From: an uncultured Granulosicoccaceae bacterium
GTDB lineage: Bacteria > Pseudomonadota > Gammaproteobacteria > Granulosicoccales > Granulosicoccaceae
Reading direction: 5' to 3'
NCBI GenBank assembly: GCA_938035525.1
Contig: CALHOI010000020.1
Span: 1-64,000, forward strand
DNA: 64,000 nt
Below are positions 30,897 through 36,446 of the stretch, piece by piece. A model generated the notes under the pieces. The model was not told the origin of the DNA, did no database searches, and worked only from the letters and a program-made list of their open reading frames with translations. Both the position numbers and the translations under genes were made by a program. Positions within the stretch are counted from its first letter, which is position 1. Every line of letters begins with the position of its first letter.

Positions 30897-32573
<1,677 letters not shown>

Positions 32574-32593
32574 TCAGATGGCTGCTCTTCCAA

Positions 32594-32625
32594 GGCAATC
32601 CGCGGCAATGGCAATCCGCCGCAAA
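32594..32625. repeat. 16 bp direct tandem repeat between groES and groEL
   Basis: GGCAATCCGCGGCAAT (32594-32609) is followed at once by GGCAATCCGCCGCAAA (32610-32625). It sits in the 109-base gap between groES and groEL. Confidence 0.75.
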
Positions 32626-32664
32626 GACAATTGGCCGTGGAGATCAGCACAAAAAAGGGGAAAC

Positions 32665-32955
32665 TTAGCCTTCGAAAACGCCCATGATGTCGTCTTCACG
32701 CATCACCAGCAGATCTTCACCGTCAATTTTGATTTCGGTACCGGAATACTTACCAAACATCACTTGATCACCGGCTTTCACGTCCAAAGGACGGACATCA
32801 CCGTTCTCAGCAATTTTGCCTTTTCCGACTGAAATAACTTCGCCGCGAACCGGCTTTTCAGTAGCGGAATCAGGGATCACGATGCCACCAGCACTGGTGC
32901 GTTCCTCTTCCATGCGCTTGATGACCACGCGGTCATGCAAAGGACGAATATTCAT
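32665..32955 (-). CDS. groES: Co-chaperonin GroES (10 kDa)
   Basis: 96 residues, standard size. The lid of the GroEL chamber. Seen: [21 protein letters not shown] at the start, the mobile loop ([12 protein letters not shown]), [30 protein letters not shown] and the C-terminal [12 protein letters not shown]. First gene of the operon. Confidence 0.98.
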
Positions 32956-33091: not shown

Positions 33092-33595
33092 CTAATCAAC
33101 GCGCCGATAATCACCCTCAATAACATCCGGGTCTTTTTTGCCCGAACCGGCAGCCTGTGCAGGCCCGCTACCCGCCTGTGATGGCCTCGCTCCAGGGTTG
33201 CCGCCGGTACCGCCAACCGACGCACCACCGACAAATACGTTCATATTGGACAAAGAGTTGTTCGCCAGCTTCTTCGCCAAAAAGCGACGGGTAACAGGCA
33301 CTAAAGTGCAGAAACCTATGGCATCAGTGATAAAACCTGGTGTCAGCAGCAAAACACCACCAATGAGCAGCAGCAGACCTTCCAACATTTGTAACGCGGG
33401 CATCTCACCTTGTTGCATCCGCAACTGGGCCTTATTCAGGGTCGCCATCCCCTGTTGTCTGAGCATAAAAGTGCCGACAAACGCCGTCAAAATCACGATA
33501 CCAATCGTTGTCCAGCCGCCAATTGCCCCGCCCACCTTGATCAAAACGGCGATCTCGACTATTGGCATAATAATAAACAGTAAAAACAGGTAGGG
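33092..33595 (-). CDS. fxsA: FxsA-family membrane protein
   Basis: About 167 residues from the ATG at 33595 (MPYLFLLFIIMPIVEIAV); an upstream in-frame codon at 33616 adds seven. The N-terminal FxsA domain has four hydrophobic segments with the family's IMPIVEIAVLIKVG, MLRQQGMATL, and LLTPGFITDAIGF. In E. coli FxsA (suppressor of F exclusion) affects phage T7 exclusion by the F plasmid. The C-terminus is a Gly/Pro-rich tail. Often found beside groES-groEL, as here. Confidence 0.92.
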   Translation of the reverse strand, partial: PYLFLLFIIMPIVEIAVLIKVGGAIGGWTTIGIVILTAFVGTFMLRQQGMATLNKAQLRMQQGEMPALQMLEGLLLLIGGVLLLTPGFITDAIGFCTLVPVTRRFLAKKLANNSLSNMNVFVGGASVGGTGGNPGARPSQAGSGPAQAAGSGKKDPDVIEGDYRRVD

Positions 33596-33839
33596 CATAA
33601 TTGCGCTCCAGCACACGATAATGGATGAACCTATCGATTCGTCGGGGTTCTTACAAGGGCTTGGTGCAGATTACGTTAGTCCTGACGATAGTTCCCAGGG
33701 CAGCCCCAAGCGTAGTCTCGGGTAGTCCCGACGATAATCGCAAAGGGCAATAATCTGTCACCCCCAAGCGTTTAATACTAACACCAGGCACAAAACCGGA
33801 TTGACCTGCAGCTGTGCTGCTAAAATTTGATATGTACAT

Positions 33840-36446
33840 ATGAAGGCTAACCCGTCAGCAACAATCAAAGCTACTCAACGCCGAGCGTCGCTGCGCCCGC
33901 TGGCGATGATGAGGTCTGTGCGTCAATCTCCACGACTCGGTTTTGGGCAGCTGAGTTTTCTGCTGCCCAAAAGGCTGTTGTCGAACGTACTGTTACCGGT
34001 ATTACTATTACTCACTGTTCCGGCGCATGCGCTCGAATCACTGTTTGGTAGCAGCGCCGAACCACTGCAGGTAGAAGAAGCCTTCGCACCTGAACTACTG
34101 TCATCGTCTGCTAACGACATTACCGTTCGGTTCAATGTGGCAGACGAGTATTTCCTGTATCAAAAGAAATTCAACTTCGAGTTGGACGATCCTTCGGTTG
34201 AACTACAAACGCCAAGCTATCCACCTTCCATCGTTCAGGAAGATGAGTTTTTTGGCAAAAGCCACGTCCATCGTGGTCAAACCGACGTCACCATACCGGT
34301 TGCACACACAGGTGAAGCAAAATCACTTGAGTTAACGGTCGGTTATCAAGGCTGTGCCGACATGGGCTTGTGCTACCCACCCACTAAAGTGCAATTTAAC
34401 GTTGACTTGCCAGCCAACAATAACAGCACCAATATTGCTGTTGCACAAGCAGATGCGGCGCAAAGCGATATCGCTCCTGCAAAAACCAGCATCAACGATT
34501 TACTAAAACCCAAACTTGACTTCGGCGGTGAGGAAGCACCTTTACTGTCTCCCGATGTGGCATTCGTGCCTTCTATTCTAAAAGCTGCCGATGGTGAAAT
34601 AGAGCTAAGGTGGTTTATTGAACCTGGGTATTATTTGTATCGCGATAAAATCAACTTTACGTTGGCCGATACAAATGGCGCAGAGGTTGCCAGCTTTGAT
34701 GTTGATCGCGGCATCATGGAAAACGATGCCTACTTTGGCAACGTTGAAATATTACGGGAGGTTGCAGGCGCAAGAATCAAACTGGCGCAAGCACAAAGCC
34801 TGACAACAGCCACGCTTAACATTCACTCCCAAGGCTGTGCCGACATTGGCGTGTGTTTTCCACCGCAGACGACTTCGCTACCAATCAGTTTTACCAATTC
34901 AGCGAGCAACGCGATCGGCGCAATCGCGAAAGCCGGAGCTGGTGATACCGGCGGTGGTATGAGCGCGATTGCCGACACAAGTTCTGCCCAAGCCAATTCA
35001 AACATCAGCGCTGTCACGACTGTTAGTAACGCTAGCGGCAACAGCACAACGGCTAACACCACACCCGTCAGCGCTAACACATCGAGCAGCGGCACCACTG
35101 TCTCAAATGTTGTTGAGAAACCCGTAAGCGAGCAAGACAAACTGACGCAGCTGCTTGAGGCCGGTAACTTGGGTTTTATTGCTCTGGCATTTTACGGTGC
35201 CGGGCTTCTTCTGGCCTTCACAGCCTGCATGTACCCCATGATTCCAATACTGTCGAGCCTGATAGCCGGACAAGGAACAAAGCTGAGCACCACTAAAGCT
35301 TTTGGCTTGTCTGCGGTTTACGTTTTATCAATGGCATCGGTGTTTGCTGTAGTGGGCGTTCTGGTCGGCCTGTCCGGGTTCAACATTCAACCGCTGTTCC
35401 AAAACCCCTGGGTATTAAGTGCGTTTGCGGCTTTGTTTGTGTTGCTGGCCCTATCAATGTTCGGTGTATTCCAATTACAAATGCCAAGCGCCATTCAAAC
35501 CAAAGTATCAGAGCTATCCAACAAACAATCTGGCGGCACCTGGTCTGGTGTTGCGTTAATGGGCATGTTGTCGGCGTTAATCGTTGGACCATGCGTCACA
35601 CCACCTCTGGTTGCCGCATTAGCCTACATAGCCAACACTGGCGACGCTGCTATTGGTGGTATAGCACTGTTTGCAATCGGTATTGGCATGGGGACACCGT
35701 TGCTGCTTATCGGTACATCACTCGGACGCTTTTTACCTAAGGCCGGCGGCTGGATGGATACCACACAACGCGTATTCGGCATCATTTTGTTAATCGTGGC
35801 CATCTACATGTTGTCAAGATTTTTACCCGGCAACGTCATCATGCTGATGTTTGCCGTACTCGCCATATTCACGGGTGTGTATTTCGGCGCAACCGATCGA
35901 CTTGATAACACCAGCCGCGGCATCCATCGTTTCGGTAAAAGCGTGGGCCTGGTGTCTCTGGTTTACGGCTTTGTATTAATGGTTGGCGCATTAGCCGGTG
36001 GTACCAGCATGCTCTCGCCATTACAAAGTCTGGTCGGTAACAGCGGAGGCAATGGCGTCAACGGCAACGCAGTGGCCGAGCATCTTACTTTTCAGCGCGT
36101 TAAAAATGAAGCCGAATTAGATTCGGTTCTGGCCAATGCAAAGGCACAAGGACGACCCGTCATGTTCGACTTTTACGCCGACTGGTGTATCAGCTGTAAA
36201 GAAATGGAAGCATTCACCTTTACCGACCCAAGGGTTCAAGAACAACTGCGCGATGCAGTGTTGATTCAGGCTGATGTCACCGAAAACAACGATGATGACA
36301 AAGCCCTGTTAAAAAGATTCAGCTTGTTCGGGCCTCCGGCTATTATGCTGTACGACCGTTCAGGCACTGAGCTGACAGCTGGCCGTGTTGTGGGATTTAT
36401 GAAGGCTGATAAATTCAATACGCATTTACAAGCCTATTTAAACTGA
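33840..36446 (+). CDS. dsbD: Thiol:disulfide interchange protein DsbD with duplicated N-terminal domain
   Basis: 868 residues, about 300 longer than E. coli DsbD. It passes electrons from cytoplasmic thioredoxin across the inner membrane to periplasmic disulfide partners. After the signal segment (LLSNVLLPVLLLLTVPAHA) come two nDsbD domains in tandem: the first with C172/C178 in GCADMGLCYPP, the second with C333/C339 in GCADIGVCFPP. A Ser/Thr/Asn-rich linker leads to the eight-helix membrane domain (C463 in FTACMYPM, C585 in VGPCVTPP) and a thioredoxin-like domain (C783/C786 in DWCISCK). All cysteines needed for relay are kept, and the extra domain has its own pair. The 223-base gap upstream holds an imperfect long direct repeat but no gene. 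Confidence 0.95.
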   Translation: MKANPSATIKATQRRASLRPLAMMRSVRQSPRLGFGQLSFLLPKRLLSNVLLPVLLLLTVPAHALESLFGSSAEPLQVEEAFAPELLSSSANDITVRFNVADEYFLYQKKFNFELDDPSVELQTPSYPPSIVQEDEFFGKSHVHRGQTDVTIPVAHTGEAKSLELTVGYQGCADMGLCYPPTKVQFNVDLPANNNSTNIAVAQADAAQSDIAPAKTSINDLLKPKLDFGGEEAPLLSPDVAFVPSILKAADGEIELRWFIEPGYYLYRDKINFTLADTNGAEVASFDVDRGIMENDAYFGNVEILREVAGARIKLAQAQSLTTATLNIHSQGCADIGVCFPPQTTSLPISFTNSASNAIGAIAKAGAGDTGGGMSAIADTSSAQANSNISAVTTVSNASGNSTTANTTPVSANTSSSGTTVSNVVEKPVSEQDKLTQLLEAGNLGFIALAFYGAGLLLAFTACMYPMIPILSSLIAGQGTKLSTTKAFGLSAVYVLSMASVFAVVGVLVGLSGFNIQPLFQNPWVLSAFAALFVLLALSMFGVFQLQMPSAIQTKVSELSNKQSGGTWSGVALMGMLSALIVGPCVTPPLVAALAYIANTGDAAIGGIALFAIGIGMGTPLLLIGTSLGRFLPKAGGWMDTTQRVFGIILLIVAIYMLSRFLPGNVIMLMFAVLAIFTGVYFGATDRLDNTSRGIHRFGKSVGLVSLVYGFVLMVGALAGGTSMLSPLQSLVGNSGGNGVNGNAVAEHLTFQRVKNEAELDSVLANAKAQGRPVMFDFYADWCISCKEMEAFTFTDPRVQEQLRDAVLIQADVTENNDDDKALLKRFSLFGPPAIMLYDRSGTELTAGRVVGFMKADKFNTHLQAYLN

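Follow-up and report, generated by a model that had tools for sequence, protein, structure and literature searches.

The window, i.e. the whole stretch of 64,000 nucleotides analysed here from an uncultured Granulosicoccaceae bacterium, contains an open reading frame of 868 codons whose product is a complete DsbD bearing two DsbD_N domains. The neighbouring genes and the parts of its product are arranged as follows.

30897..32955, minus strand: putative groEL and groES genes, adjacent to the dsbD locus
33092..33616, minus strand: putative FxsA-like gene, divergent neighbour of dsbD
33840..36446, plus strand: dsbD, 868 codons, comprising putative signal peptide, D1, D2, DsbD_TM and a thioredoxin-like C-terminal domain
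33978..34031, plus strand: signal-peptide-like hydrophobic stretch with AHA at its end, residues about 47-64, read from the sequence
34056..34412, plus strand: D1, the membrane-distal nDsbD domain, residues 73-191
34413..34535, plus strand: D1-D2 linker, 41 aa, of low complexity and predicted to be disordered
34536..34895, plus strand: D2, the membrane-proximal nDsbD domain, residues 233-352
34896..35138, plus strand: long linker that joins D2 to the membrane domain, rich in Ser, Thr, Asn and Ala, predicted to be disordered
35178..35825, plus strand: DsbD_TM, the electron-carrying membrane domain (Pfam, 296 bits), with Cys463 and Cys585
36078..36431, plus strand: cDsbD, the thioredoxin-like domain, with WCISC (Cys783, Cys786)

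The product scored 696 bits against the NCBIfam model NF001419 (PRK00293, protein-disulfide reductase DsbD; cut-off 330), and Pfam resolved it into two DsbD_N domains, DsbD_TM and Thioredoxin_7. Its eight cysteines, at residues 172, 178, 333, 339, 463, 585, 783 and 786, make up four redox pairs. The order of its domains (nDsbD, membrane, thioredoxin-like) is that of DsbD, and each has a cysteine pair. The columns of Cys463 and Cys585 were invariant among 57 aligned proteins, and E. coli cDsbD (1uc7) matched the C-terminal domain with an E-value of 1.2e-32. All residue numbers depend on the annotated start, the first ATG, which lies about 46 residues ahead of the signal-peptide-like stretch. 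By eye, no clear ribosome-binding site was seen for this start (window positions 33840-34035), and later starts at residues 23, 24, 27 or 47 are possible.

The genes adjoining dsbD are presumably groEL-, groES- and FxsA-like, together with an MFS-like gene. We take the groESL/fxsA neighbourhood to be that of dsbD in E. coli as well. GroES and/or FxsA matches were found at 58 of the best 80 related loci (out of at least 584), many of these loci being short. This recurrence of the neighbours seen in the window indicates a single, shared chromosomal locus.

An initial annotation had described two N-terminal redox domains that both keep a GCADxGxCxPP cysteine pair (C172/C178 and C333/C339), and the positions and motifs proved correct. 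D1 carries GCADMGLCYPP from residue 171 (Cys172 and Cys178 at 34353-34373) and D2 carries GCADIGVCFPP from residue 332 (Cys333 and Cys339 at 34836-34856). In the genome search PF11412 (DsbD_N; cut-off 25) matched D1 with 96.9 bits (34056-34403) and D2 with 83.6 bits (34536-34877). Over 115 aa the two domains of the window protein share 31% identity (E 1e-20), so their resemblance is not due to chance.

D1 and D2 are each predicted to adopt the immunoglobulin-like nDsbD fold. In an AlphaFold2 model of the tandem, built from an alignment of 70 proteins, pLDDT values of ten-residue blocks were 87-98 in both domains and about 50-60 in the linker; the pTM of 0.52 leaves the mutual orientation of D1 and D2 undefined. 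D1 (model residues 9-126) superimposed on nDsbD of N. meningitidis (6dps) with Z 17.5 and an rmsd of 1.5 A, and D2 (model residues 170-287) on nDsbD 2k0r with Z 13.2 and an rmsd of 2.3 A. The initial annotation had named a domain unable to fold as nDsbD as a possible objection; in the models both domains appear well folded. Its suggestion that the periplasmic output side is doubled is a fair inference, since two intact output-type domains are real. A full-length model was consistent with the tandem model of D1 and D2 and gave pLDDT values below 50 at model residues 131-167, in the D1-D2 linker, and at 290-343 and 345-358, between D2 and the membrane domain. The D1-D2 linker spans 23-78 aa across 30 tandem proteins. 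By alignment, the candidate cap-loop site reads DEFFG in D1 and DAYFG in D2. F or Y occupies the aromatic position, a candidate equivalent of F70 of E. coli, in 62 of 80 D1 and 32 of 80 D2 domains.

The tandem form was found in 23 of the 27 genomes of the host genus, that of the window included. The remaining 4 genomes contain one weak DsbD_N match apiece (39-44 bits), and in none of these four was a single-domain DsbD found. In nine further genomes of the family, all from other genera, the form was tandem in 4, single in 3 and neither in 2. In a sample of the class comprising 143 genomes, one per family, 128 had any DsbD_N match and 49, again including that of the window, had the tandem form, i.e. 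49 of the 128 with a match; most of the class-wide matches beyond those listed were settled by separate searches of 17 and 20 genomes. The DsbD region was obtained from 125 of the 127 other matching genomes (all except G049 and G120), for 11 of them from shorter loci. Rescanning the genes of these 125 genomes and the window with a purpose-built profile altered no tandem or single call. Hence, the rarity implied by the initial annotation did not hold: two N-terminal domains are a frequent and fixed trait of a DsbD subfamily, an objection that the annotation itself had raised.

A scan of named genomes yielded at least 584 relatives. Of the best 80 of these, 79 loci encode the tandem in one frame, and in the eightieth (L152) the frame is broken next to an N of the assembly. 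L152 had also been considered as a separate D1 gene, which was dropped because the in-frame stop directly adjoins this N. Named carriers of the tandem include Thiocystis, Rhabdochromatium, Halochromatium, Thiomicrospira, Lysobacter, Luteimonas, Methylomonas and Guyparkeria. On a tree of the DsbD membrane domain, tandem and single forms interchange about 20 times, at least 5 times on supported branches, and heads thus seem to have been gained or lost fairly often. The tandem is widespread and old in the class, an ordinary variant of a known protein; the gene in the window is an orthologous dsbD of this form. The DsbD family and its parts are already known, and Pfam presumably already lists the tandem DsbD_N architecture. 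In a partial coverage of the literature, no title or abstract opening among the matches listed had tandem nDsbD in DsbD as its topic.

The cysteine pair was kept in 97 of 97 profile-found tandem domains of the class sample, a count from which one truncated domain (D1 of G158) was dropped, and in 160 of 160 domains of the motif-found set with the window. The 80 best loci had been selected by their cysteine-motif pattern, and the count in the class sample is therefore the less biased one. If one head were redundant, its pair should have been lost in some protein; none was, which argues that both heads are used. It is extremely improbable that the second head reflects an assembly duplication or a decaying, degenerate extra domain: we found no evidence in support of this, and the low identity of D1 and D2, the presence of the tandem in independent genomes (most of the genus) and the retention of the cysteine pair in every tandem domain counted all speak against it.

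D1 and D2 represent old and distinct types, as judged from trees and profiles. In a tree of 70 domains the D1 and D2 position labels required 7 and 13 changes, respectively, compared to 22.9 after shuffling, and in a tree of 170 domains 8 and 16 compared to about 57; deep forks were poorly resolved in both. Single domains as a group were not clustered in the 70-domain tree, where 45 of 500 shuffles gave values as low, and only weakly in the 170-domain tree (6 of 500). Profiles were trained on 75 D1 and 75 D2 domains from which rows named Granulosicoccaceae were excluded, although unnamed relatives may remain. In cross-validation they assigned 75 of 75 held-out D1 and 71 of 75 held-out D2 rows correctly. 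Applied to the class sample, in which some genomes were also among the training rows, they classified 45 of 48 first domains as D1-like and 41 of 49 second domains as D2-like. The domains of 72 single-domain DsbDs from the sample were D2-like in 49 cases, D1-like in 11 and between the two in 12. Thus, it is the membrane-proximal head that most resembles the usual nDsbD of single-domain proteins, whereas the distal one is mostly of a second type.

This separation bears on the idea of equivalent heads whose doubling would just increase throughput or make it likelier that a reduced head is near a client. Motif and fold are common to both heads, and in the 70-domain tree the two heads of the L053 protein pair as sisters, suggestive of a more recent re-duplication or conversion, and this would fit such a dosage effect. 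Under plain redundancy, however, D1 and D2 would not be expected to stay separate types across many families, and we consider this explanation rather unlikely.

Tandem proteins of other Gammaproteobacteria (Thiocystis, Lysobacter, Methylomonas etc.) share the architecture and both cysteine pairs with the window protein, but relative to these the second domain of the host genus has drifted away from the usual D2 type. D1 of the window is of the D1 type (+18.5 bits), as are most in the genus (12 of 14 proteins above +10). D2 of the window is neither clearly of the D1 nor of the D2 type (-1.3 bits), and values in the genus range from -4.6 to +6.7 (14 proteins). In the 170-domain tree the D2 domains of the genus were grouped with the D1 domains of two relatives (SH-aLRT 95). 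The D2 of the genus may be a copy of D1, which the larger tree favours, whereas the profiles assign it to neither type. Among 14 proteins of the genus, D2 shows slightly stronger conservation than D1 (median identity 46.7% vs 42.4%).

Textbook DsbD carries reducing power across the inner membrane and has one output head. The proteins of E. coli and Neisseria (NF001419; nDsbD 1jpe, 1vrs, 6dps) likewise combine an nDsbD Cys-x5-Cys pair, a two-cysteine DsbD_TM and a thioredoxin-like C-terminus, whereas the window protein has two nDsbD domains and longer linkers. Judging from homology with DsbD of E. coli, cytoplasmic thioredoxin would reduce the membrane pair C463/C585, which in turn would reduce cDsbD (C783/C786). 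cDsbD would then reduce either nDsbD head, both being held on long flexible linkers, and from each head electrons would go on to thioredoxin-fold proteins of the periplasm that are of CcmG, TlpA or DsbC type. The heads probably operate in parallel rather than in series, and the clients of D1 and D2 would overlap but differ. Overall, we find it fairly likely that two flexibly tethered heads are fed in parallel by one cDsbD and serve overlapping, non-identical clients.

The alternative of a series, in which electrons would pass from cDsbD to D2 and on to D1, the latter reaching further into the periplasm, would agree with the fixed order of two DsbD_N domains ahead of the membrane domain and with the predominance of D2-like domains among the single ones (49 of 72). 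We know of no exchange from nDsbD to nDsbD, which counts against such a relay, as do the long linkers with their predicted flexibility. In E. coli, the chain runs from thioredoxin via tmDsbD, cDsbD and nDsbD to DsbC, CcmG or DsbG (PMC7347389). There, oxidised nDsbD has no legitimate partner other than cDsbD, and on reduced nDsbD the cap loop stays closed (PMC7347389), both of which argue against a series. Parallel feeding is favoured over a series because the linkers are predicted to be disordered and oxidised nDsbD of E. coli has this sole partner; a relay through both heads is thus quite improbable.

Every match to TIGR00385, a CcmG-type profile, at an E-value of up to 0.001 was counted as a measure of potential clients; it includes other thioredoxin-like proteins and was also matched in 12 of 14 control genomes. 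Tandem genomes had a median of 10 such matches and single genomes 5 (p 2.5e-12; 49 vs 79 genomes), the single group including G049, G120 and a few fragments as well as G060, G066, G073, G121 and G142, whose fetched regions were without DsbD_N by the purpose-built profile. Corrected for genome size and phylogeny, the effect was 0.32 +/- 0.08 log units, about 1.4-fold (t 3.8), in 115 genomes (48 tandem and 67 single; tandem G047 was below the membrane-domain score limit), with a DsbD gene tree containing several long branches used in place of a species tree. A stricter test on independent pairs had five supported pairs, too few for significance. The host genome has 5 matches at 88% completeness, equal to the median of single-head genomes. 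Full-score CcmG did not differ between tandem (41 of 49) and single genomes (58 of 79; p 0.20). DsbC was considered as a special client of the second head and rejected: the raw association (47 of 49 tandem vs 57 of 79 single genomes at E up to 0.001, tandem G156 being counted solely through a match under the family cut-off) was gone after phylogenetic correction (t 0.01, lambda 0.84).

Client load is thus a plausible, though unproved, driver of the second head. More CcmG/TlpA-type matches in tandem genomes would also be in line with interchangeable heads that raise throughput. The initial annotation had left open whether the second domain serves other partners or adds capacity. Specialisation is favoured over plain capacity because D1 and D2 stayed two types and, weakly, because of the CcmG/TlpA-type link. 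Tentatively, D1 and D2 could even be ancient, functionally distinct electron outlets of one transporter, D2 being the ordinary nDsbD and D1 serving an enlarged set of CcmG/TlpA-type reductases, with D2 of the host genus reshaped or replaced by a D1-like copy.

The nearest relative found with an enlarged N-terminal periplasmic part is ScsB. This part (6c29) we take to be a tandem Ig fold; that of P. mirabilis ScsB aligns across both domains of the window protein (196 residues, Z 11.4, rmsd 11.6 A, 12% identity), and by sequence no match to ScsB was found at E up to 10. ScsB has been likened to DsbD as a membrane reductant protein and keeps ScsC reduced (PMC8900818). Taken alone, the tandem DsbD of the window is ordinary. 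Since roughly one in three families sampled from the class has a double head, models of DsbD derived from E. coli are incomplete. The tandem form offers a natural system for studying how one shuttle shares reductant among competing periplasmic clients.

A third DsbD_N match in the host genome lies outside the window (C20:75822-76244, minus strand; locus L090). It sits at the C-terminus of a non-DsbD frame of 846 aa and has a C-x4-C-x-AP motif. Pfam found DsbD_N and a GH76 match just below the cut-off, and nothing else, in the 563 aa of this protein that were scanned; its N-terminal part presumably is YyaL/DUF255-like. The match was rejected as a candidate ScsB, being the C-terminal domain of a different protein. 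Many members of the genus have weak DsbD_N matches within frames of comparable length, and those of its four non-tandem genomes resemble the match in L090.

A second DsbD gene may be present in two members of the host genus. G005 (contigs C137 and C97) has two strong DsbD_N places, one of them tandem and the other consisting of one strong domain with a weak match nearby, and in G016 (contigs C194 and C92) both places are tandem. Short frames (176-234 aa) with a strong DsbD_N match were found in G013 (C25), G087 (C41), G120 (C97), G121 (C1) and G146 (C15). These may be separate nDsbD proteins, gene fragments or frameshifts; the frame in G146 is without a membrane domain. In the single-domain DsbDs of G105 (C220, L222) and G131 (C47, L252), with frames of 810 and 849 aa, about 200-250 residues precede the sole DsbD_N found by the profile.
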